22,009 nucleotides of DNA, taken from assembly GCA_001275005.1 (NCBI GenBank), contig JWZX01001476.1, positions 1 to 22,009 of the forward strand, in the 5' to 3' direction. This DNA is from Chrysochromulina tobinii (Eukaryota > Haptophyta > Prymnesiales > Chrysochromulinaceae). Below the pieces are notes generated by a model that saw only the letters and a list, made by a program, of their open reading frames with translations, was not told the DNA's origin and did no database searches. Position numbers and translations under genes: made by a program. Numbering within the stretch: position 1 is the first letter of the stretch; the number at the start of each line of letters is the position of its first letter. This document shows, in pieces, positions 1,578 to 22,009 of this stretch.

Positions 1578-4500
1578 ATGCCTTTTATGGGAAGACGTAG
1601 ACCGAACCAAATCTGGACTCAACAAGGGGTCGGACACCTTCTCCGTGCCCGCAAACCCAGCAGGCCAAACCGCGACACAAAAGGAGCAGCACAAATGCTG
1701 GCGGGCCTTGCAGTCCTGCTCCTCGGAGTGGGACTGCAAATCTTCGAAAAGCCGCTCGAAGAATCACTCGTGCCGGAGCAACATGAGATGGACGCACAGA
1801 AGATTAGCGCACCAGGACAGCAGCGCACAACACACCGTTACCAGAACAGGTTTCAACAAGCCGTCCCGGAGGAGGTGCACCCACAGGTTCTCGTCATCGT
1901 GTCAGACCACGGAAGCGGTACGACGTCCTTAGGGAGGGCGCTCGATAGCCACCCGTGCGTGGTTGACGTCGGGGAGCCCTTCGGTCCCGCATACCAGATA
2001 TGGTCGAACAGCTCGGTCACTGAGTGCGACAGCTATAAAGGTACCGACGCTATCTTCGACGCGCAATCGGGCAAGCTCCAGGATCCGAGGAATGAGAAGA
2101 TCGTCGAGAAAGTAGGCAAGGCGCTCGACGACTTCGGGGTACAACTGAAAGAGTCTGCCTATGACTCCCTGTACGATGGTCTCAAGTACAACCTCGCCGA
2201 GTACTTTGTCCGCGTCCGGGATTTCGTCTGTGCAAACGTGCCGGAGGACGTGTGCCCTCCCTCGGACTGCACCATCGTCACAAAGTTCTTCCCGAATTAT
2301 ATCAACGGAGATACCAACGGCGAGACGGGCGATCCCAGAACTGGCAAGAATCCCAAGTGCGTGAAGGCGATGAACGCGAAGGCGATCGTCTCGTGGCAGG
2401 ACGCGCTCGTGTCGATGGAGCAGAACCCCAAGGTCGCGACGTTGCAACTCACCCGTGATGAGAATGACAGGCAGTTCTCGATCTTCCACCGGTTCAATCC
2501 TGAAGGCTCAGAATTCGACTGCGGCGTCCCACGCCCCTTCAACGAGTTCATCACCATGGCTAGCGAGCACACCGACGCTCACATGAAAGTCGAGAATTGC
2601 TGGCAAAGTGCTACCGACGCCGATAAGTGCCTGAGCGATGGTCTCAAGCTCGTCGGCCTCTCCGAAGCGCCGATGGGTCACGTTGCGGCGCAATTCGATA
2701 AGGAAGCCGCGCTAGCCGTGATGTTGGGCGAGACGAAACTACCTTCCGATCACAAGGCGGCGAGCAAGAGTTGCGCCACCGACCCCACGGCGATCTTCAA
2801 GAGACTCGAAAATTATGACGTGAAAGTGGTCGGCAAATCGAAGGGGTCGGCGCTACTAAATAAGGCGGCGTTTGAGAAGGAGGCAGCCGACAAGGCGGCA
2901 GCTGAGAAGGCGGCGGCCGAGAAGGCGGCGGCCGAGAAGGCGGCGGCCGAGAAGGCGGCGGCCGAGAAGGCGGCGGCCGAAAGGGCGGCGGCCGAGAAGG
3001 CGGCGGCCGAGAAGGCGGCGGCCGAGAAGGCGGCGGCCGAGAAGGCGGCGGCCGAGAGGGCGGCGGCCGAGAAGGCGGCGGCCGAGAAGGCGGCGGCCGA
3101 GAAGGCGGCGGCCGAGAAGGCGGCGGCCGAAAGGGCGGCGGCCGAAAGGGCGGCGGCCGAGAAGGCAGCGGCCGAGAAGGTGCAGCGGCGCGTGGCGGCG
3201 CGGCGCGAGGCCAACCTCCTTCAGGAGGAGAGGGATGCTATCCGACGACTTGACAGCACAGAGATTCCGGAGGGCGGCACGTGGTTCTTGGTGGATGCAG
3301 CATGGCTCAAGCATTGGAGAGACTACTGCTGGGACGGCATTCGGCCCGACCCCCCCGGCCCAATTTGCAACAGTCGCCTTCTCCGTTCAGACGGCCGACC
3401 TCATCCAAATCTCCAAAAGGCAACCGATTATCGCGGGGTCAACGAGGCCGTGTGGCGATTCCATCATGGGAAGTATGGTGGTGGGCCAGCCATTTGCCGT
3501 TCGAAGCTGGACATCTACGCACCACCAATCCCTCCGCCCGCCGACCTCGCGACGCCAACCACAAGCCCTCAAGCCGTCGTACTGGAGACTGATGATGTTG
3601 AGATCCAATTGGAAGATGTTCGATGTTTCGAACATGAGCGTCTCAATCGAAGTCTTGGTCCTGCGCCATGGCGAACGCATCGAATGGGGATCGATGAACG
3701 AAGCATGATAAGCTGGGACTTCCTTATCGAGGCCAAGGCGGCGGTCGAGGCCAAGGTGGCGGTCGAGGCCAAGGCCAAGGCGGGGGTCGAGGCCAAGGTG
3801 GCGCCTACAAAAGCTGCGTTTCGGGTGCCGCCGGCAGTGTGCTTGGCCCCATCGGCACCACCACCGCCGCCGGCGGCCACCCATGCAGCAGCTGCTGCAG
3901 CACCGCCCGTCGTCGCGCAGTCGATGGGCAAGGTACACAGCACGCGGCTGGGTAAGCCCACTGCCACCACGGCAGCCTTGCTGACGCGGCGGCGGAACGC
4001 GGCCGCGGCTGCAGTTGGGGGCGCAGATCAAGGCGCGAGCGTGCTCGAGCACGCGTCGACACGGGATTGGGCTCCGACGCGTGACAGGGCGTCGACACGT
4101 GACCGGGCTCAGACGCGTGACAGGGCGCCGGGCACAGGACGGCGGCGGACTAGCACGAGTAGCAGCACCGGCCGCGGCGGAAGCACCAAGGGCAAGAGCG
4201 CCGCCAAGGTGCTGAGCGAGTATGTGGACGGGATCGAGCCGGCGCGGCTGCTTGAGCACGCGGAAGAGATCCAGCTCGCCAGGCAGGTGCAGCGGCTCAA
4301 GACGCTCGAGCAGATCTACCTGTCGCTCGGACAGGGTGCGGTTGGAGCCCCTGAGGGCGGAGCGCCAACCACGGGTGCGTTAAGGCGTGGCGGGCGTGCA
4401 GCCGCCAACGCCGGCACCGCAGCAGGATCCGCCCCCACCGTGCGGGGCCACATCCTGTCGCTCAAGGACACCCTGTCGCGCTCGGGCGATCAAGTGGTCG

Positions 4501-5600
4501 ATCTGTTCCGTGCGTGGGACGAGGACGGGAGTGGCACCGTCGATCGAGGCGAGTTCTACCGCGCCATCCGGGCGCTCGGTTTCGTCTTCAAGCAGGAGGA
4601 GGCGAACATGGTCTTCGACGCTCTGGACGAGGACCAGTCGGGCGTGCTCGAGTACAAGGAGTTGAACACGATGCTGCGCGAGAGCGCCCGAGAGGCGATC
4701 CGGGCCGACGGCGGCGCCTCGCGAGACGAGTGGGCGGCCGCGGCCAACGTGTCCGTCGCCGAGCTGCGCCAGCAGCTGAGAGAGGGCAAGCGGGCACGCG
4801 AGCGCATCGTCGCGTCGAACCTCGGACTTGTCGGGCACGCCATCCGGCTGCTCAAGCGCTCGAGCGGTGGACGGATAGACGAAGGGACGACCGAGGCGGA
4901 CTTGCTGCAGGAGGGCTGCATCGCGCTATTGCATGCGGCGGAGGGGTTCGACGTGTCGCTGGGCGTGCGCTTCGGCACGTATGCCACGTTCTGGGTGCGC
5001 GCAGCGATCAAGCGCGCTCTGCAGGAGCAGACCCGTATCGTGCGCCTGCCCTCGCGCGTGCAGAACACGTACGGGCAGATCATGCGAGCTACCGACGCGC
5101 TGAGCCGAGGTCAGTCGAGCTCCGCTGGAGGTTCTCAGCTCCCCTCCGACAATGCCATCTCCGAGAAGCTCGAGGAGGGGGGCGTGAAGCTCTCGCCGCA
5201 AAAGGTGCGGCAAATCATCGGGCAGGTGCGCGTGCGCCCCACGTCTCTCGATCGCACCCTCGACCGGCGCGGCGGCAAGGGCGACGACGACGGCACCACG
5301 GTGGGTGACCTGGTTCGAGACGCCTCTAAGCCGCCACCCGAGAGGGAGATGATTGAGGACTCGCTCCGGACCGATCTCAGCAAGGTGATGACGAAGCATC
5401 TGCGCGAGGACGAGGCCAAGGTGCTCACGCTACGCTTTGGACTTGGCGACGGCGCGTCGCGCACCGTCCGTCAGGTGTCTGAGGAGACGGGGCTCACTTA
5501 CGCGCGCACCAAGCACGTGCTCTTCTCGGCGCTCTCGAAGCTTCGTAAGCCGCACGTCGCGGTCGCCCTACGTGACTACTTGCCTGGTGATGAGCTGTGA
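1578..5600 (+). CDS. Composite open frame: sulfotransferase-like module, rigid helix, DUSP domain and sigma-70 factor with EF-hands
   Basis: One uninterrupted 1340-codon frame. In order: a basic N-terminal segment; a hydrophobic stretch at residues 41-57 ([16 protein letters not shown]), a likely type II membrane anchor; a sulfotransferase-like domain (about 103-415); (AAAEK)19 at 440-534; a DUSP domain (about 563-647); a long Ala/Pro/Thr/Arg linker; and a sigma-70 factor (879-1340) with two EF-hands. The start at 1578 gives a basic cytosolic tail; the in-frame ATG at 1695 would begin directly at the anchor. A Golgi sulfotransferase and a plastid sigma factor would not be expected in one polypeptide, and base composition rises from the sulfotransferase to the sigma part. 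Two genes joined by an intron, a recent read-through fusion, or an assembly join are therefore possible. A transit-like Ser/Thr/Arg/Ala-rich stretch follows the internal Met at 3927, a candidate separate start for the sigma factor. Confidence 0.7.
1884..2822 (+). other. Sulfotransferase-like module
   Basis: Residues 109-120 read [12 protein letters not shown], resembling the 5'-phosphosulfate-binding loop of PAPS-dependent sulfotransferases. Residues 293-301 read RDENDRQFS, giving the Arg and Ser eight residues apart that bind the 3'-phosphate of PAPS in the family. With the N-terminal hydrophobic anchor this suggests a lumenal Golgi enzyme that sulfates carbohydrate or protein. The acceptor cannot be predicted. 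Several Cys residues (for example C158, C218, C225) could form lumenal disulfides. The boundaries are approximate. Confidence 0.6.
2895..3179 (+). repeat. 15-bp tandem repeat, 19 units, encoding (AAAEK)19
   Basis: Nineteen exact-length 15-bp units encode Ala-Ala-Ala-Glu-(Lys/Arg), residues 440-534. Arg replaces Lys in units 6, 11, 16 and 17, so variants recur every five units (75 bp), a sign of stepwise block duplication. The peptide has the composition of the (EAAAK)n rigid alpha-helical linker and should form one straight helix of about 14 nm. Unit length is a multiple of three, so copy-number change keeps the frame. Confidence 0.97.
3264..3518 (+). other. DUSP-like domain
   Basis: Residues 563-647 contain [19 protein letters not shown], then [10 protein letters not shown], then [17 protein letters not shown]. 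The order W-(F/Y)-L-(I/V)...W...W, PGPI-x-N, W...YGG-P-x-I-x-R is the signature of DUSP domains found in ubiquitin-specific proteases and in many unrelated protist proteins. No protease catalytic domain is present in this frame, so it probably acts as a binding module. Confidence 0.65.
4053..4124 (+). repeat. 18-bp tandem repeat, 4 units, encoding A-x-T-R-D-(R/W)
   Basis: Residues 826-849 read [24 protein letters not shown]. At DNA level units 1/3 and 2/4 are closer to each other, giving a 36-bp higher-order period. It lies in the basic linker just before sigma region 1.2 and is probably a disordered spacer. Confidence 0.9.
4212..5600 (+). other. Plastid-type sigma-70 factor module with EF-hand insert
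   Basis: Sigma factors direct the bacterial-type plastid RNA polymerase to promoters. Seen in order: region 1.2 start [20 protein letters not shown] (879-898), continuing to 919; EF-hand pair (981-1028); second part of region 1.2, [16 protein letters not shown] onward (from 1050); region 2.1 [13 protein letters not shown] (1080-1092); regions 2.3-2.4 [18 protein letters not shown] up to TRIVRLP (to 1158); region 3 with [11 protein letters not shown]; region 4.1 [10 protein letters not shown]; and region 4.2 (1295-1324) ending ALSKLRKP. Region 2.4 is well conserved. The region 4.2 helix-turn-helix is divergent: [16 protein letters not shown] replaces the usual SRERVRQIE...AL.KLR. Plastid location is inferred from the family in eukaryotes. 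Confidence 0.85.
4518..4661 (+). other. Pair of canonical EF-hand calcium-binding loops inside the sigma factor
   Basis: Loop 1, residues 981-992, is [12 protein letters not shown] and loop 2, residues 1017-1028, is [12 protein letters not shown]. Both have acidic or oxygen ligands at positions 1, 3, 5, 9 and 12, Gly at 6 and a hydrophobic residue at 8, so both should bind calcium. The loops are 36 residues apart with helical flanks (VVDLFRAW before, [10 protein letters not shown] between, [13 protein letters not shown] after), the geometry of a normal paired EF lobe. The lobe interrupts sigma region 1.2. Confidence 0.92.
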
Positions 5601-6215
5601 ATGACGAGACGAGCGGTGTGAAGAACGAGCGGAGTGAAGGACGACAAGAGGACAATAGGGAAGGGCGAGGCGAAGGCGGCGGATGCGGCGGACGCGGCAA
5701 GGCGGCGATGGCGCGGCGGCCGCCTGGCGAAGGCAACAGGATGCATGCTCGAATGGCACGGCGCCAAAGCGGCCGCGGACGCGGCACCCTGGTGGATCCC
5801 CGACCTGGATAAGGAGCAGTAAGGAGTATAATCACATCGATGTACGGAGGTGTCTTTGTAACTTTTGAGGTTTTGTATACGTGTCTGAGATGTAGAGTAT
5901 ACCTTTTGACCGGGATGGTCCGCTAGTGGCACCTGCTGGTGAAGAGTACTCTGAAGTCAGACATTGTGGCAAGTGCTGGGACACAGGACAGCTGGACCTG
6001 CTGGCGGTGCTGCTGAGCTCGCCGGGGGCCGGCGACGAAACTGACTGACTGACAGATGTGGTATACACGAGAGAGTTGACGCTGCACCATGCTGCACGCA
6101 CTCTCAGTTCGCCCCAACCAGGAAGTTCGGTCTACATGAATAGTCGGCTGCCGATCGCCGAGATCCAAATCGAAGTTCGTCGTCGCGAACAGCAGGAATC
6201 CCCCATACTCCACTG
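5601..6215. other. Intergenic region with 3' UTR and upstream region of the dehydrogenase
   Basis: No supported gene. Just after the stop there is an imperfect tandem repeat: ACGAGCGGTGTGAAG and ACGAGCGGAGTGAAG, starting at about 5610 and 5625. Bases 5820-5900 are AT-richer and probably lie near the 3' end of the upstream transcript. The last 200 bases should carry the dehydrogenase promoter and 5' UTR. Short frames here have no recognisable protein features. Confidence 0.5.
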
Positions 6216-9200
6216 ATGCGAGGCGTCCGTGGCGTCCTCGGCACGTCGGTGCTGCGCCGACCGGCCGCTGCGCTGCTGCTGCGTCGCGCATCGGCGGCGC
6301 AACCCGCCGCCGCAGCGGCCGCATCGAGTAGCATTCAGCAGTCGCGTAACTTGCCCGGTCGGAAGGTGGAGTATCGCAACGTTGATGGCATGCGGCACGA
6401 CGACGGCCGGTATACGGCCTTCAAGGCCAGCGTGCGCGGTATCGTGGGCGACGATGGCGTGATCGACGATCCAGTGCGCACGTTTGCCTATGGCACCGAC
6501 GCCAGCTTCTACCGGCTGACGCCGCAGGTAGTCGTCAAAGTGCGCTCCGAGCAGGAGGTAGTTGACGTGCTTGAGGTGGCGCGCGTCCACCAGACGCCTG
6601 TCACATTTCGAGCGGCTGGCACGTCGCTCTCGGGCCAGGCGATCACCGATTCGGTGCTGCTCAAGCTGTCGCACAATGGCACGGCCTGGCGCAAATACAA
6701 GATTGAGAATGGCGGCCAGCGCATCACGCTCGAGCCGGGCCTCATCGGCGGCGAGGTCAACCGGCTGCTCGCCTCGTATAAGAAAAAGCACAACTGCGAG
6801 ACCCAGTACAAGATCGGGCCCGATCCGGCCTCGATCGATAGCTGTATGATCGGCGGCATCGTGGCGAACAATTCGAGCGGCATGTGCTGTGGCGTCAAGC
6901 AGAACACATATCACACGCTCGAGGACATGCGCGTGGTGCTTGTCGACGGCACTGTGCTGGACACGGCCTGCACGACGAGCCGAGCCGCCTTTCACGAGTC
7001 ACACGCACCGCTGCTTGCTGGCTTGTCGTCGCTCGCGTCGCGTGTGCAGGCCGACGCATCCCTCCTTGCGCTCATCCGCCAAAAGTACGCGATCAAGAAC
7101 ACGACCGGCTACTCGATCAACGCGCTGGCCGACTTTTCGCCGAGCGACCCCATCGAGATCCTGAAGCGCATCATGATCGGTTCCGAGGGCACCCTTGGAT
7201 TCGTGTCGCAGGTGACATATAAGACAGTGCCCGATCACCCGAACAAGGCGTCCGCCTTCCTCGTCTTCGCCGACATCGAGGAGGCTTGTGACGCCGTCGC
7301 GGCGCTTCGCAAGAATACCAAGGTCGACGCCGTCGAGATGTTCGACCGGCGCTCGCTCAAGCTCACGTCCGACATGGCCGCTTTGGTCGCGCTCTGCCCC
7401 GAGCTGCCGCACCTGCCCGCGGACGGAGAAGCAGCGGCTCTTCTCATCGAGTGCCGTGGCAAAGACGACGAGGCACTCGCCGCCCAGATCGAGTCCGTGT
7501 GCAAGGCGCTGCGCGACTCGAGGGTACCGGTAGTGTCGGCGGTGGGCTACACTCCCGAAGCCTTCAAGCACGACCCGAAGGACTTCAACGTGTATTGGGA
7601 CGCGCGTAAGGGGCTCATCCCGATCGTGGGCGGCGGTCGTGAGCCCGGGACTACGATGCTGCTCGAGGATGTCGCGTGCTCGGTCGACAAGCTCGGTAAG
7701 ATGTCCAAGGACCTGATCGCCATCTTCCAAAAGTACGGCTACCACGACGCGTGCCTGATGGGCCATGCGCTCGAGGGCAACCTGCACCTCATCTTCAACC
7801 AGTCCTTCAAGACGCCGGAGGAGCTCAAGCGGTACGAAGACGTCCTGTACGAGATCAACTACAACGTGGCGATCGTGCACGGCGGCTCGCTCAAGGCCGA
7901 ACACGGCACCGGGCGCAACGTGGCGCCCTTTGTCGAAATGGAGTGGGGCACCAAGGCGTACGAGCTCATGTGGGAGCTCAAGCGGCTCTTCGATCCGCAG
8001 TTCATCCTCAACCCGGGCGTGATTCTCAACGAGGACCCTCTCGTCCACGCCAAGAACATTCGGCAGGACTTCGTGGCGCACCCGCTCGTCGACCGGTGCA
8101 TCTCCTGCGGCTGGTGCGAGTCTAACTGCCCGTCAAAGGACCTGACGCTCACGCCGCGCCAGCGCATCCAGGTGTACAAGGAGATGAGCCGCATGCGCGA
8201 AGAGTGGACCGCGAGCGGCGCGCAGCTCAAGCCCGCGCGGCTGCTTGCCTTCGAGTCGAGTTGGGAATATGCGGAGAACACGTGCGCAGCCGACGGCATG
8301 TGCCAGGAAAAGTGCCCTGTCAAGATCAACACGGGCGAACTCATCAAGACGCTCCGCCAGAACACGCTCGAGGGCGACGGCACCATGTCCGTTGGCGGGC
8401 CGGCAACTCCGCGCGGCGCGGCGCTCGCGGCGATGCTCGCGGCCAATTTTGGGACCGTGACTAAACTCGTACCGCCCCTCCTGGACGTGGTGAGCCTAAC
8501 GCATCGGCTCCTCGGCAACCTGCCCATGGCGACGCTCACATGGGGCCCATGGCGCGTCTCGAACAACTACCTGCCACTGTGGAACAAGTACATGCCGCGT
8601 GGTGCTCAGCCAGTCGTCGTGCCCACGCCGCCCGAGGTGGCGGCCGACGCCAAGCCGAAGCGCGTCGTGTATGTACCCTCGTGCGTGACACGTATGATGG
8701 GACCAGCGCGCGGCGACGCGGACGCGGGCGACGAGGCGGTGCACACCAAGTTCATGTCGCTGCTCTCGAAGGCCGGGTATGAAGTCGTCATCCCCGAGGG
8801 CCTCGGCTCCATGTGCTGTGGCATGATCATGGACTCGCGGGGCTTCCGCGACGTGGGCGCCACGCAGGCGGCGCAGATGCAGCAGGCGCTACTGGACGCG
8901 TCCGACCGCGGCAAGCTGCCGATTGTGTGCGACACGAGCCCGTGCCTTCAGCGTATGAAGGAGAAGTTTGACGATCCGCTGCTCAAGCTTGCCCTCTTTG
9001 AGCCCGTGCAGTTCATCCTGCTCTACCTCAAGAGCGAGCTCGAGTTCGCCAAGGTGCGCGACTCGATCGCGGTGCATGTGCCGTGCTCGTCGAAGAAGCT
9101 CAAGGTGGGCGAGCAGATGGTGCAACTGGCCGAGCTGTGCGCCACGGAGGTGCACGCGACGCCCATCCCGTGCTGTGGCATGGCGGGTGACCGCGGCATG

Positions 9201-9407
9201 CGATATCCCGAGCTCACGAGCTCCTCGCTGCAGCACCTCGACGGCATGATGCAGAAGCACGCGTGCTCGGACGGGTATTCGACCTCGCGCACGTGCGAAA
9301 TGTCGCTCTCCAACCACTCGGGCGTCCACTTCCGATCACTGCTGTATCTGCTCGATGAGGCGGCAACTCCGAAGGCAGCGCCCATCACAGCGCGTAACGG
9401 TCTCTAA
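6216..9407 (+). CDS. FAD/Fe-S D-lactate (D-2-hydroxyacid) dehydrogenase, mitochondrial type
   Basis: A 1063-residue flavoprotein expected to oxidise D-lactate or a related D-2-hydroxyacid and pass electrons through Fe-S centres to the respiratory chain. Residues 1-50 are rich in Arg/Ala/Ser with no acidic residue, a typical mitochondrial presequence. Next comes an FAD-binding PCMH domain (about 100-300; FRAAGTSLSGQ at 131-141). The FAD-oxidase C-terminal domain has GHALEGNLH (516-524) and EHGTGR (562-567); in this family H517, H524 and E562 would bind the substrate metal. A ferredoxin-like domain has C628, C631, C634, C638 and CAADGMCQEKCP (690-701). Two CCG (heterodisulfide-reductase-like) modules follow (C823, C867-C868-G, C986-C987-G). 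The layout and length match bacterial Dld-II/YdiJ proteins, so a bacterial origin is likely. No introns. The C-terminus is altered by a tandem duplication. Confidence 0.9.
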   Translation: MRGVRGVLGTSVLRRPAAALLLRRASAAQPAAAAAASSSIQQSRNLPGRKVEYRNVDGMRHDDGRYTAFKASVRGIVGDDGVIDDPVRTFAYGTDASFYRLTPQVVVKVRSEQEVVDVLEVARVHQTPVTFRAAGTSLSGQAITDSVLLKLSHNGTAWRKYKIENGGQRITLEPGLIGGEVNRLLASYKKKHNCETQYKIGPDPASIDSCMIGGIVANNSSGMCCGVKQNTYHTLEDMRVVLVDGTVLDTACTTSRAAFHESHAPLLAGLSSLASRVQADASLLALIRQKYAIKNTTGYSINALADFSPSDPIEILKRIMIGSEGTLGFVSQVTYKTVPDHPNKASAFLVFADIEEACDAVAALRKNTKVDAVEMFDRRSLKLTSDMAALVALCPELPHLPADGEAAALLIECRGKDDEALAAQIESVCKALRDSRVPVVSAVGYTPEAFKHDPKDFNVYWDARKGLIPIVGGGREPGTTMLLEDVACSVDKLGKMSKDLIAIFQKYGYHDACLMGHALEGNLHLIFNQSFKTPEELKRYEDVLYEINYNVAIVHGGSLKAEHGTGRNVAPFVEMEWGTKAYELMWELKRLFDPQFILNPGVILNEDPLVHAKNIRQDFVAHPLVDRCISCGWCESNCPSKDLTLTPRQRIQVYKEMSRMREEWTASGAQLKPARLLAFESSWEYAENTCAADGMCQEKCPVKINTGELIKTLRQNTLEGDGTMSVGGPATPRGAALAAMLAANFGTVTKLVPPLLDVVSLTHRLLGNLPMATLTWGPWRVSNNYLPLWNKYMPRGAQPVVVPTPPEVAADAKPKRVVYVPSCVTRMMGPARGDADAGDEAVHTKFMSLLSKAGYEVVIPEGLGSMCCGMIMDSRGFRDVGATQAAQMQQALLDASDRGKLPIVCDTSPCLQRMKEKFDDPLLKLALFEPVQFILLYLKSELEFAKVRDSIAVHVPCSSKKLKVGEQMVQLAELCATEVHATPIPCCGMAGDRGMRYPELTSSSLQHLDGMMQKHACSDGYSTSRTCEMSLSNHSGVHFRSLLYLLDEAATPKAAPITARNGL

Positions 9408-10436: not shown

Positions 10437-11265
10437 TTACGAGCCAAAGCCTGGCATGCTCGCCATGCCCAGCGGCGGCACAAGGTCGCTGACACCATTG
10501 TACGTGTAGGGGAAGCCGCCGCCAGTGAGGGTCGCCTGCGTGACGATGCCGCTGAAGGCCATCATCGCAAGGCGCCCGTTGGCGAGCTCCTTCTCCTGCA
10601 GGTCCTTGGAGCCACCGAAGCCCAACGGGTCGAACTTGTAGTCACCGCCCGGCGCAGCGTCGGGGTCGTTCATAATCTGGAAGCACTTGGGGATACCCGC
10701 GAACACCTCGATCACGGCAATGGGGATGAGCATCGCGAGCATCGGGCCGCGCTCCACTGCAGCGTCATGCGCGTACAGCGACAGCACCTTGGGTGCGTAG
10801 GGCACCGTGAACCCCCAATCGACGGCCCACCAGCCGGCGACAGCAAGCATGCAGACGCGCGCGTGCTTCAGCTCGGCCTGACAACGAGGCACGGCGCAAC
10901 GCAGACTCAGAGAGAGGACGGCAGCACTTGCTTTGGCTTTTAGTGGTCTCCTGGCCTGAACGCACCTCGCGCGACCACTGGAGCGGGACGAGGTCGGAGA
11001 TCTGAAGCGGATCGAAGCCAATGTCACCGGCCATCGAGCCTGCGACGTGTCACGGCCAGGCATCTCAGCGTGTGCAGCTGGACAGACGTGTGCGTTGGTT
11101 TGGACAGTGCCCGGGTGCCGCCTCACCGTCGAGCGCAGGCGGCTTCTTGAGGAAGGGAATGGCCTTGCTCTTCTCCTGCATCAGCGGCGCGGATGTGCGA
11201 GAAACCGCATGGAAGGTAGGCAGCGGCGCGCTGGAAGAGAGCGAGGCCTGTGCGACTGGCAGCAT
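10437..11265 (-). CDS. Fucoxanthin/chlorophyll a/c-type light-harvesting protein, three exons (11265-11127, 11039-10966, 10877-10437)
   Basis: Thylakoid antenna protein that binds chlorophylls and carotenoids. Splicing two short introns yields 217 residues. The N-terminal part has MQEKSKAIPFL and LDGSMAGDIGFDPL, the FCP-type entry to the mature protein. Helix 1 is AELKHARVCMLAVAG (72-86) with chlorophyll ligands E73 and H76. Helix 2 lies at about 113-135. Helix 3 has EKELANGRLAMMAF (166-179) with E168, N171 and R173. Exon junctions restore the conserved LDGSMAGD and WSREAELKHARV strings, which fixes the splice sites. The first 28 residues (MLPVAQASLSSSAPLP...) should be the plastid-targeting presequence, but the hydrophobic core is weak, so a 5' signal-peptide exon may be missing. 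An acceptor-like TTTTCCTCAG lies just upstream. It is head to head with EXO1. Confidence 0.9.
10878..10965 (-). other. Intron 2 of the light-harvesting gene (88 nt)
   Basis: Minus-strand donor GAG|GTGCGT at 10965 and acceptor TTGTCAG|GCC at 10878, phase 0. Splicing joins QWSRE to AELKHARV, the invariant helix-1 entry of the family. Confidence 0.9.
11040..11126 (-). other. Intron 1 of the light-harvesting gene (87 nt)
   Basis: Minus-strand donor GACG|GTGAGG at 11126 and acceptor CGTCGCAG|GCTCG at 11040, phase 1. Splicing restores the Gly codon in LDGSMAGDIGFDPL. Confidence 0.9.
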
Positions 11266-17724: not shown

Positions 17725-19734
17725 TCACTTGCCGGCGCCGCCGTTGACCGTCAGCGGGCCTACCGCCCGTCGCTGCTGCGCCGCGGCCAGCGCGGCTGCC
17801 GCGCCACGCGACGTCTTCGGTTTCGAGGCGAGCTTGGCGGCGACGCTGCTCACGACGTGGGGCGCGGCCGGGTGCCCCACGGGCCCCCCAGGCTGCCCCC
17901 CGGTCGGCTGCACCGCCGCCATCGGCGCAGCGCCCACAACAAAGCCCGCATATGGCGGCCGCGTCGCACCGGCGGCGACATGGGGCAGCGGCTGGGTCGG
18001 CATGGTCGCGTAGACCGGCGGCGGCGCGCCCGCGGCCGCCGCTGCCATCGGCTGTGCCTGGAAGGGGCTGCCGTGGCCAAGCGCCGCCATATGCTGCGTC
18101 AGACCGGAGTGGACGAACGCCGGTGGCGCGTGGCGCGGGTCGACGCTGCACTGCCGTTTGCTGCGCGGGCCGCGCCGAGCTGCCTGGGTGCCATCCACCT
18201 CCTCATCGGAGTCCTCAATCTCGTCCGCGGCGCGTGTGTGCGCCGCGTCCCACGGGCGGAAGGAGCCGAACGCTTGGATCTCTCCCTGCATCCATGGGTC
18301 GGCGAGCGCCTGCGCGACGCTGAGCCGCCTGCGCGGGTCGACGACGAGCATCCTGCAGATCATCTGTTTGGCCGCGGGCGAGACGCGATCCCACACCGGG
18401 TGCCGGAAGTGCGCCGCGTTCACGCCCGCCTTAATCTGGTCGAAGATGGTCGCTGGCGCGCCTGAGGCACCCGGCGGTGCGACCTGGTCGGCAAAGGGCG
18501 GCGAGGCCGAGAGCAGGTTGTACATGAGCACGCCGACGGACCATACGTCGCACGCCCGATCGTAGCCGCGCCCGCTCGAGCGGGTCTCCAGCACCTCGGG
18601 CGCAAAGTACTGCGGCGTGCCGCAAAAGGTGGCCGCACGGAAGTGCACGTCGGCGCCGACGAGCTTGGCGAGCCCGAAGTCCGCAATCTTCACCTCGGGC
18701 AAGAAGGAGGTGGCGCCCGCGGGCGGCTCCTTCAGCAGGATGTTCTCGGGCTTCAGGTCGCGATGCACGATGTGCCGCTCGTGCAGGTAGTTGAGCGCCG
18801 AGAGCAGCTGGAACATGACGTGGCGCGCGTCCGCCTCCGCGAAGGGTCCATCGCGCTCCAGCCTGTCGAAGAGCTCGCCGCCCTGTACGAGCTCCATGAC
18901 GAGGTAGAGCTTGGTGGCGTCCTCGAAGATGTCGACGAACTTGATCACGTTCGGGTGCTCGATCGTGCGCAGGATGCGTGCCTCCATGAGCACGCGGCTC
19001 TGCAGCTCGGTCATCTGCTCGGCCGTGCAGCAGCGCGCGTCGCCCGCGGCCGCGCCGCGTAGCAGCTTCTTCTTGTCCATGACCTTCATGGCGTACTCGA
19101 TGCCCGTCGGCCTGTGCAGCACGCGTTTGACGACCGCGAACGAGCCCTTGCCCAGCTCGCAAACCTCCTCGTAGTCCTCCGCGCTGCTCTGCGCGCAGAG
19201 CGACGTCTCTCTAAGCAGCGACGGCTGCGTCGGCGGCGGCGGCGGCGGCGGTAGCGGCGGCGGCGGGCGCAGGTCGATGAACATGAACTGGTAGTTGATG
19301 GCGTGCGGGACAACGGCCGGGTCGTCGAGCATCGCGTTCCCCGAGCTCATCGACGCGTGCTTCGGGTTCGGGTTGAGCAGCACAATGTTGTCCGCATTCT
19401 GCAGCCGCCGGATCTGGTTCTTGCCCATCCGCTGGTTGTTCCACCACGTGCCGTTGGAGCTAAGATCGATGACGTGCGCGAGTCCATTGTCGTCGAGGAA
19501 TATGCGGCAGTGCATCGAGCTGACGCGCGGGTCATTGAACTTGATGTGCGCATTGCTGTTCTTCGCCACCTTGCCGAAAAGGATGACGCGCTGGTTGAGG
19601 TCAACGATGCCGAAGCTGGAGGTGGGCCCCATGCCGATGAGACGGGCCCACGGCTCACTGAATTCCTCCTCGGCCAGGGTCCCCGCATCCGGCTCGTCGG
19701 CCTGCGTAGGCGGCGCCGCGTCCTCGACCTCCAT
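17725..19734 (-). CDS. FHA-domain serine/threonine kinase of CHK2/Cds1 layout
   Basis: A 669-residue kinase, no introns. An FHA domain (about 50-120) has VSSMHCRIF (71-79) and DLSSNGTWWNN (90-100), the S-x-x-H and N-G-T motifs used to bind phosphothreonine; the usual Gly-Arg is Gly-Lys (G54-K55). A polyproline linker (157-171) follows. The kinase domain (about 188-465) is complete: GKGSFAVV P-loop, K217 in AMKV, HRDLKPEN (324-331), DFG (352-354), CGTPQYFAPE (371-380) and DVWSVGVLMYNLL. The tail is Pro/Ala/Gly-rich. FHA followed by a CaMK-group kinase is the arrangement of CHK2/Rad53/Cds1 checkpoint kinases in the nucleus, where FHA binding promotes dimerisation and activation. The ATG at 19734 places the FHA just after a short acidic N-terminus; the open frame further upstream begins without an ATG. 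The ortholog assignment is inference. Confidence 0.87.
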   Translation of the reverse strand: MEVEDAAPPTQADEPDAGTLAEEEFSEPWARLIGMGPTSSFGIVDLNQRVILFGKVAKNSNAHIKFNDPRVSSMHCRIFLDDNGLAHVIDLSSNGTWWNNQRMGKNQIRRLQNADNIVLLNPNPKHASMSSGNAMLDDPAVVPHAINYQFMFIDLRPPPPLPPPPPPPTQPSLLRETSLCAQSSAEDYEEVCELGKGSFAVVKRVLHRPTGIEYAMKVMDKKKLLRGAAAGDARCCTAEQMTELQSRVLMEARILRTIEHPNVIKFVDIFEDATKLYLVMELVQGGELFDRLERDGPFAEADARHVMFQLLSALNYLHERHIVHRDLKPENILLKEPPAGATSFLPEVKIADFGLAKLVGADVHFRAATFCGTPQYFAPEVLETRSSGRGYDRACDVWSVGVLMYNLLSASPPFADQVAPPGASGAPATIFDQIKAGVNAAHFRHPVWDRVSPAAKQMICRMLVVDPRRRLSVAQALADPWMQGEIQAFGSFRPWDAAHTRAADEIEDSDEEVDGTQAARRGPRSKRQCSVDPRHAPPAFVHSGLTQHMAALGHGSPFQAQPMAAAAAGAPPPVYATMPTQPLPHVAAGATRPPYAGFVVGAAPMAAVQPTGGQPGGPVGHPAAPHVVSSVAAKLASKPKTSRGAAAALAAAQQRRAVGPLTVNGGAGK

Positions 19735-20112
19735 TAGGAGACGGTGTCCAAGGCGGCAGCTCGCCGACACAAAACTTGACCGCTTGATGACGATGATCAT
19801 CAAGCCAATTCTTGCGCGTGAGGTCCTGTGCATGGGCTTGCGAGCGCAAATTAATGCATTGGAAACGCGCCGTAATCTACCGGCCGGTTGTCCTCGCAAC
19901 AGATTGTTGGTTGGATGGCGAGGAGGAGCTCGGACGGCCAGTCGCGACGAAGCACGGTGAACGGGCGGCTGTTTCTCTACGGCAGTTCGGACTGGGCCTC
20001 GACGGTTGCCACCTCGCCCGCCGGCACCTTCTTCGGCTTCCCTCCGGTCAATGGCTCCAATGATCAATTGAGACCCGCAACAGCGAAACACAAGGTCGGC
20101 CGCTTTGACGTA
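19735..20112. promoter_or_regulatory. 378-bp region between the divergent kinase and the last gene
   Basis: Upstream region of both genes. It is more AT-rich near the kinase start (AAATTAATGCATTGG at about 19848) and has a self-complementary ATGATCAT-like motif at 19793-19801. A TGATCA lies at 20061-20066. No named element recognised. Confidence 0.4.
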
Positions 20113-22009
20113 ATGAAGCTGACGCCCGAAGTGCAGCTGCTCGCCACCAGGTTGCTCTCGCCGCGCCGTCCTGCGAGTGCGCGCGATGCAACCGCCACTA
20201 CGTCGCCGCCGAGGCCTGTCAACCTCTCGCCGGGCTCAAAAAGGCCGGCACTGCCGCGGCCATCACCCACGCATCGACCTGCCACACCACGAGCCGCCTT
20301 CGGTGGCGGCGAACGCGGAAAAAGCGAACGCGGAGAAGCCATCGACAAGCTTGAGGAGCAGCTGATGAGGAGCAGCTTGAGCGCGCGGCCTCGCGGCCGA
20401 CTCGTGCCAGCCTCTGCGCGGACCACGAGACGCAGCGGCGGCAGCGGCATGATGGCGGAGGAGCCCTCGACAAGTGCCATCCCGCTCACGGAACGGCCGT
20501 CGACCTCGCCGCAACGTCGCCGGGCCGTCAGTAGCGCCCAACGAGCTGAGCCGCCAGCAGTGGCAGCCACCGACGAGTCGCCGATGACCGCCGAGGTGCG
20601 GCAGCTGTGCGCGTGCCTCAGATCGTCGGCGGGCACTGCGTCCGCGACGGCGACGGCCACTGCGGCGGCGGCGGCCGCCTCCGCCCTGACCGCCGCCACC
20701 GCCGCCGCCGCCGATGATTCCTTTGAGCTGGGCTTCGCGCAGCTGCGCCTAGCTGTGGCCGAGGATGAGGCGTGTGTGCAGCAGCTGCGCGAGGCTCTCG
20801 TCGAGGCGCTCGTCGAGGCGACGGAGCATCAAGCACTCGCCCTGGCTGCAGCGAGCGCTCAAGCGGAGCGCACGCGCTGGCGGCCGACGACGCGCGCCGC
20901 CCTTGATGCGCCCTCCAACGGTATGTTCGTGCCGCAAGAGCTCGGCCTGCTGTATGCCAACGTGCCCGCCCTCGCTGTGGCCAACCGCCTCGGCCCTCGT
21001 ATGGGCCTAGCATGCGAGGCAGGGGGTCAGGTGGCCTGGCGCGCTGAGTTCTCTCGCGCGCGCCGGCTGCCTCGGCTACTCGAGCACGCGGACGCATCGC
21101 TCCATTATGCGCTGGGTGCCGTGCGCCACTACGCCTTGAGCGGCTGGCTCGAGCACGTCACGGCGCGGGTCGCCGCCGCGGATGAGCAGCATGCGCAGGC
21201 CGAGGCGGCCGCGAGCACTGACGCCGACGCCGAGGCAGCTGACGCCGAGCTGCTCGCCACCGCGACGCGGCTGAAGGAGGAGACCCTCGGCGCGTGCGAG
21301 CGCTGCCGGCTTCTCGAGCGTAGACTCCCGCCACTGAGCGACGCGGCGCGCGTTCAGTCAGGAAGGCACGTGAGGGAACATTTGGCGGTGGCGGTGGCGA
21401 TGGCCGATCCAGCGGCTGTGCCGGCGGAAGTGAAGGCGCTCGACGATGCACGGCGCGAGCGTGCGCGGGTGCGCACGGCCGAGCGCGCGAGCTTCGAGGG
21501 ACTGTGCACCCGGGCGCTCTTGGCGTGCGAGATTCTTAAATCGAAGGCGCATGCGGCCTGTGCGCGGGACCTTGACGAGAAGCGAGCGGCGAGGATGGCG
21601 AAGGTGAACAAGGTCAAGGCGGCCATGGGCAAGGGTATTGCGAGGGTCGGCTTGTCAAAGTTGCTCGAGGAGGAGGGCGTGACGCTGGCGGAACGACGAG
21701 CGCATGCGGAACGACGAGCCCACGAAGAGACCATAGCGGCAGCTTTCGCCGCCTCCGACTTTTTCTCGACGGCCGCGGAGCCCGACGCGCCCGAGCCCGA
21801 GCTCGACGAAGTGTTCGATGAAGCACCTCCCGAACAATTCTTTCACCACAACCGAGCACTTTCGCCCCGAAACTACCCACCGCCTAAAGCCAAGCCAGAG
21901 ACCCCGCCGCCGCCGCCGCCGCCGCCACCGCCGCCGCCGGAGCCGGAGCCAGAGCCGGAGCCCGAGCCGCCCCCGCCCCCCCCACCGCCGGAGCCCGAAC
22001 CCGAGCCCG
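20113..22009 (+). CDS. Ala-rich helical protein with Pro/Glu tail, unknown function (partial, 3' end outside window)
   Basis: The frame from ATG 20113 (MKLTPEVQLLATRLLSP) stays open for 632 codons to the window edge. Residues 1-200 are basic and Ser/Pro-rich, probably disordered. From 201 (DDSFELGFAQLRLAVAEDE) there is a long predicted alpha-helical or coiled-coil stretch, then GMFVPQELGLLYANVPALAV (271-290), and more helix up to about 560, including LSKLLEEEGVTLAERRAHAE. After an acidic DFF-containing segment the chain turns into polyproline followed by Pro-Glu repeats (from about 598). I do not recognise a family. Proteins with such PPPEPEP tracts are frequent in haptophyte and similar GC-rich algal genomes. 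It diverges from the kinase gene. Confidence 0.72.
   Translation, partial: MKLTPEVQLLATRLLSPRRPASARDATATTSPPRPVNLSPGSKRPALPRPSPTHRPATPRAAFGGGERGKSERGEAIDKLEEQLMRSSLSARPRGRLVPASARTTRRSGGSGMMAEEPSTSAIPLTERPSTSPQRRRAVSSAQRAEPPAVAATDESPMTAEVRQLCACLRSSAGTASATATATAAAAAASALTAATAAAADDSFELGFAQLRLAVAEDEACVQQLREALVEALVEATEHQALALAAASAQAERTRWRPTTRAALDAPSNGMFVPQELGLLYANVPALAVANRLGPRMGLACEAGGQVAWRAEFSRARRLPRLLEHADASLHYALGAVRHYALSGWLEHVTARVAAADEQHAQAEAAASTDADAEAADAELLATATRLKEETLGACERCRLLERRLPPLSDAARVQSGRHVREHLAVAVAMADPAAVPAEVKALDDARRERARVRTAERASFEGLCTRALLACEILKSKAHAACARDLDEKRAARMAKVNKVKAAMGKGIARVGLSKLLEEEGVTLAERRAHAERRAHEETIAAAFAASDFFSTAAEPDAPEPELDEVFDEAPPEQFFHHNRALSPRNYPPPKAKPETPPPPPPPPPPPPEPEPEPEPEPPPPPPPPEPEPEP
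21904..22009 (+). repeat. (CCG)n and (GAGCC[G/C])n low-complexity tract, polyproline and Pro-Glu
   Basis: CCG triplets (21904-21939) encode polyproline, followed by GAGCCG/GAGCCC hexamers encoding Glu-Pro repeats that alternate with more proline to the window end. It is in frame with the last gene. Confidence 0.9.

Follow-up and report, generated by a model that had tools for sequence, protein, structure and literature searches.

CRSH, a plastid RelA/SpoT homologue of plants, carries EF-hands and is calcium-dependent in vitro; through it, calcium is known to act on plastid regulation by one route, an indirect one via ppGpp (PMC6881373). An EF-hand-Tic20 fusion has been described in ochrophyte plastids (PMC5462543). 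Among sigma-70 factors, the non-conserved region (NCR) between regions 1.2 and 2.1 is variable in length and composition (PMC4598750); in Escherichia coli RpoD, where it comprises residues 128-372, region 1.2 and the NCR rotate jointly onto the beta' clamp, in a contact important in promoter escape, and the acidic loop of the NCR seems to hold nonspecific DNA away from region 2.3 (PMC7822876). The locus analysed here lies on contig JWZX01001476.1 of the haptophyte Chrysochromulina tobinii, taken as one entire contig (C600; 22,009 nucleotides, the window in what follows), and almost certainly encodes a sigma-70 factor into which an EF-hand pair is inserted, between regions 1.2 and 2.1.

CRSH is the nearest functional relative of this protein, the likeness being that of a bacterial-type plastid regulator with acquired EF-hands; however, CRSH makes (p)ppGpp and has its EF-hands at the C-terminus, whereas here the EF-hands are inside a sigma factor. 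EF-hand-Tic20 is similar in that an EF-hand has been joined to a plastid protein, there one derived from red algae, but it belongs to the import machinery and the fusion is at the N-terminus. By profile, E. coli RpoD carries its insertion at this joint too, in a fold shared with the protein, the two inserts themselves not having been compared with each other; we know of no EF-hand in the RpoD NCR. Compared to the cyanobacterial and plastid group 1-2 sigma-70 factors (SigA/RpoD), it differs in the 77-residue EF-hand pair and its linkers at the 1.2/2.1 joint, and in the altered residues of -10 and -35 reading. The word "EF-hand" is absent from the main text, as available, of a comparison of cyanobacterial and plastid sigma factors (PMC11119718). 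Searches of the open-access literature for calcium- or EF-hand-containing sigma factors (exact phrases and word combinations) returned no such protein, in agreement with an earlier note on this DNA, made by a model from the letters alone, which knew of no described calcium-sensing sigma factor.

All the parts of interest are contained in one open frame, whose final 463 codons, from 4209, encode the sigma-70 factor with the EF-hand pair:

1578..5600, + strand: open frame of 1340 codons containing all parts of interest (frame listing)
4209..4337, + strand: sigma region 1.2, residues 878-920 (bacterial sigma profile, 8.1 bits; alignment with cyanobacterial region 1.2)
4338..4454, + strand: Gly/Ala-rich linker 1, residues 921-959 (predicted low-confidence or disordered, pLDDT <50 at P0002 55-100)
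4455..4685, + strand: inserted EF-hand pair lobe, 77 residues, 960-1036 (Pfam, genome matches, alignment)
4518..4553, + strand: EF loop 1, 12 residues, 981-992 (loop pattern)
4626..4661, + strand: EF loop 2, 12 residues, 1017-1028 (loop pattern)
4686..4721, + strand: short linker 2, residues 1037-1048 (alignment)
4722..5036, + strand: helix ahead of region 2.1 and region 2, core binding and -10 reading (Pfam, profile, alignment)
5037..5396, + strand: region 3 and linker (profile and structure model only)
5397..5549, + strand: region 4, with altered -35 reading residues (Pfam, conserved-column comparison)

The insertion site was located with a profile of bacterial sigma factors, for which 25 out of 80 loci were used; it was compared with the protein, with the four further sigma-70 loci of the genome (C605, C28, C96 and C1453) and with E. 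coli RpoD. The match to the protein ends at profile position 143, in region 1.2, and restarts at position 152, in the helix ahead of region 2.1. The match to RpoD ends at position 144 (residue 131) and restarts at residue 336, beyond most of the NCR; this second match opens at profile position 128, so its initial part overlaps the first. Three paralogues each gave a single match across the joint, where C605 and C28 have about 17 extra residues and C96 has about 41, and the match to C1453 begins only at position 135, its region 1.2 being outside the score. Since the profile match breaks there, the lobe is an insertion at the NCR joint, past region 1.2. The earlier note had set the lobe into region 1.2; it does lie within the sigma fold, the site being the joint between regions 1.2 and 2. 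The same note's reading of an insertion inside the fold, and not a tail fusion, agrees with the sigma segments found on both sides in one unbroken frame, the first recognised by profile and the pre-2.1 helix standing where the main match begins (172.5 bits). As a side observation, the extra residues of C96 (L003, L034) are located ahead of region 2.1, with region 4 on a separate exon, constituting another gain near the joint.

With Pfam, Sigma70_r2 (PF04542) scored 39.7 bits (cut-off 24, E 4.3e-10) and Sigma70_r4 (PF04545) 24.9 bits, narrowly over its cut-off of 24.1 (E 1.5e-5). The region 1.2 segment is weak when taken alone (conditional E 0.0005 in the profile match; 13.6 bits with Pfam PF00140, below the cut-off of 22). 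The best NCBIfam match was the cyanobacterial RpoD/SigA subfamily TIGR02997, with 179.2 bits for a shorter query against a cut-off of 384.5; the protein resembles this subfamily but fails its membership cut-off. Cyanobacterial SigA took first place in the PDB sequence search, and Foldseek with the first structure model placed sigma factors on top, with low TM-scores. In alignment A4, whose bacterial rows come from 39 of the 80 sigma loci (about 15 residues past ARQV are misaligned in 11 rows of A4), 58 of the 97 columns conserved in at least 90% of the bacterial rows are kept.

Both loops satisfy the EF-hand loop pattern, in what we take to be its PROSITE form, with complete sets of Ca2+ ligands and at the very positions where the earlier note had seen two perfect loops. 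Two such motifs did not occur together in any of 2000 shuffles of residues 861-1340 (mean 0.002 per shuffle). Pfam EF-hand_6, _1, _7 and _8 were above cut-off (PF13499, 33.9 bits, cut-off 30; PF13405, 38.9 bits, cut-off 25), and EF-hand_5 was marginally below. The net charge, counting K, R, D and E, is -8 in the lobe and +8 in regions 2-4.

The whole query matched at least 120 stretches of the alga's own genome, itself and two sigma paralogues counted, 90 of the 562 candidates being scored. The lobe has many matches there, the four best among those listed showing 61-69% protein identity, and its DNA homology spans approximately 4457-4686, the best match (81% over 230 bases, contig C918) belonging to a gene with several EF-hands. 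On these protein and DNA matches inside the genome, the lobe is a member of the alga's native EF-hand family. It was aligned with 18 EF-hand stretches from the genome. In comparisons with five of them, four pairs showed 0.37-0.53 synonymous differences per site and the fifth pair was saturated (0.76), indicating that the lobe was not copied very recently from any of the places found; dN/dS was 0.34-0.47 where estimable, pairwise values that include selection on the partner. Given the complete loops and this sequence constraint, the lobe probably binds Ca2+. The lobe was found in 0 of the 117 genomes of the Microcoleus-locus phylum group at E 1e-5, an empty answer that alone shows nothing; the same search finds EF stretches in the alga's own genome, using a larger query. 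Viral contigs were also searched, once using the entire sigma part and once using the EF alignment, and no hit was confirmed.

The lobe is no general feature of the sigma factors of this genome, since Pfam found no EF-hand in the scanned frames of C605, C28, C96 and C1453 (for C28 the scan stopped short of its region 4 exon) and no EF loop pattern occurred in six frames of the 12 loci around them; the same six-frame scan recovered both loops in L005, the present gene, and six in L007. A calcium input via an EF-hand RelA/SpoT homologue was also considered and rejected for this genome, as none of the six RelA_SpoT loci (about 3 kb each, distant exons outside) has an EF loop in any of the six frames. 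This would leave the sigma factor, speculatively, as a candidate calcium route to plastid transcription. The six RelA_SpoT matches (L128-L133) stand at five places, two of them in one frame of C1207; two long frames lie on C873 and C1207.

The interpretation we propose, which we put at about even, is that of a nuclear, divergent cyanobacterial/plastid-type sigma-70 factor whose native EF-hand pair at the 1.2/2.1 joint acts as a calcium-responsive analogue of the NCR. EF-hands generally expose a hydrophobic face on Ca2+ binding. The sequence shows that a pair from the EF-hand family of the alga itself came to lie at the joint, behind a flexible linker. Ca2+ binding would offset some of the lobe's charge and uncover a hydrophobic face, and the changed surface or charge at the NCR joint could affect how the lobe meets the beta' clamp or DNA. 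Calcium might thereby tune promoter opening or escape of the holoenzyme containing this sigma, the plastid-encoded polymerase being the likeliest one concerned. In the E. coli polymerase this position influences DNA loading as well as promoter escape, and the acidic loop of the NCR, which seems to shield region 2.3, is a precedent for an effect of charge. A direct calcium effect on initiation is a tentative proposal, somewhat short of even. More doubtful, though possible, is the full version, in which the sigma senses calcium itself, the host-signalling EF-hand pair replacing the NCR and making plastid initiation calcium-dependent without a kinase or ppGpp. If true, calcium would reach transcription in a single step, through an EF-hand sigma at a position that acts on the clamp in E. 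coli, and the protein would be a case from nature of a sensor built into a sigma factor.

Several results weigh against this interpretation. The anatomy was seen in one genome only. The packing of the lobe on region 1.2/2, raised in the earlier note, is unreadable from the structure model, in which the lobe has block means of 42-64 (low confidence). Residues of the -10 reading stretch (W270F, Q274A, T277K) and of the -35 reading stretch (R440Y, E441A, R444K, Q445H; P0002 numbering in both) are changed at positions that we take, from E. coli RpoD, to be promoter-reading; because of these changes, the sigma part is a divergent, alternative-type sigma whose promoter choice is probably different. 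The earlier note's claim that regions 2-4 are all present stands for 2 and 4 by Pfam; Pfam region 3 (PF04539) was detected neither in the protein nor in the scan of C600, though the whole-length profile aligns through this stretch. With the promoter-reading changes and region 3 undetected by Pfam, even the sigma activity is putative. Finally, none of the in-frame ATGs closest to the sigma part (3684, 3705 and 3924) is followed by a hydrophobic leader (best 10-residue hydrophobicity mean of 1.07; leaders were compared by this measure, with no trained predictor), so that plastid delivery is presumptive. The link to calcification suggested in the earlier note found no support.

Sigma-70 factors in eukaryotic algae work for the plastid polymerase. 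In all four sigma paralogues, a hydrophobic stretch resembling a signal peptide lies close to a possible start (best means 1.98-2.49), and from these leaders together with the family background we consider action in the plastid likely. The in-frame ATGs of the 1578-5600 frame also include 1578 and 1695, and the strongest signal-peptide-like segment upstream in frame follows the ATG at 1695 (2.84), at the start of the sulfotransferase-like part described below. An upstream signal-peptide exon was rejected: in 3301-4260, the only AGs with at least 0.65 pyrimidine upstream of them are at 3374 and 3391, both within the DUSP domain. A chlorophyll a-b binding protein is encoded in the window at 10437-11177 (- strand), indicating a photosynthetic host.

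The best surviving alternative, which we nevertheless regard as unlikely, is that the lobe binds Ca2+ constitutively, or serves to stabilise the protein or to dock a partner, the membrane or an import factor, and is no transcription switch, promoter opening being indifferent to changes in calcium. The many similar EF-hand stretches of the genome stand in frames of widely differing length, the linker that tethers the lobe has very low confidence in the model, and the 1.2/2.1 joint accepts inserts of diverse content (PMC4598750). However, the loops retain their full ligand sets although synonymous sites have diverged, and the E. coli NCR acts on initiation through the same site (PMC7822876), which speaks against this alternative.

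A second alternative concerns the rest of the frame, in which two further parts lie upstream of the sigma part:

1881..2840, + strand: sulfotransferase-like part, named by eye (similarity within the genome)
3273..3503, + strand: DUSP domain (Pfam, E 4.1e-16; further copy on C1410)

The sulfotransferase-like part, with no Pfam match over 1881-2840, may be a gene by itself or the N-terminal part of a fusion; the DUSP domain is probably outside the sigma function. In this second alternative the sigma part is no active plastid sigma, being either the C-terminus of a fused sulfotransferase-like/DUSP/sigma protein or a factor that acts elsewhere in the cell; we judge this improbable. The single open frame 1578-5600 speaks for one gene, as does the finding that, if 3561-4180 were all noncoding, its shuffles would stay open in only 0.0032 of 5000 trials; but a sigma gene starting at 3684 needs only about 180 bases past the DUSP domain to be open by chance. 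Third-position GC falls to 0.52 and 0.46 between 3378 and 3677, as between genes, in favour of two genes, though this stretch is partly DUSP (to 3503) and comparable dips occur elsewhere in the frame. The signal-peptide-like segment after 1695 and the altered promoter-reading residues also fit this alternative, and in a diatom predicted plastid signals are missing in 5 of 8 sigma factors (PMC7596299). Against it, the sulfotransferase-like family is large (50 matching stretches in the genome, own copy counted, with two copies on some contigs), and no listed member is on the contigs of the other four sigma loci. A long in-frame AEKA tandem repeat (2871-3180) separates the sulfotransferase-like part from the DUSP domain. 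The further DUSP copy (L042 1501-1815, on C1410) stands behind the end of a gene that by eye is ubiquitin-specific protease-like, with several introns, and its frame has a stop shortly past the domain.

An artefact, either an assembly error or an EF stretch that is an intron or alternative exon absent from the protein, is highly improbable: the assembly is a draft (53.15 Mb, 2253 contigs) and GT dinucleotides occur ahead of the lobe (five in 4301-4460, listed without scoring), but the window contains zero N, the lobe is not copied from any other place found in the assembly, the reading frame is preserved across both joints, and the AG sites in 4381-4470 and 4661-4760 have only 0.40-0.60 pyrimidine over the 20 bases upstream, compared with 0.80 at both acceptors inferred in C28 and C96, ahead of the exon for region 4. 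The lobe as an intron is therefore unlikely, and the joined frame proposed in the earlier note, with the lobe retained, fits the single open frame without an acceptor-like AG beside it.

Elsewhere in the window, 6144-9404 encodes an FAD-linked oxidase with a 4Fe-4S dicluster part, D-lactate dehydrogenase-like by eye, and 17725-20232 (- strand) an FHA domain with a protein kinase, in a checkpoint-kinase-like arrangement.

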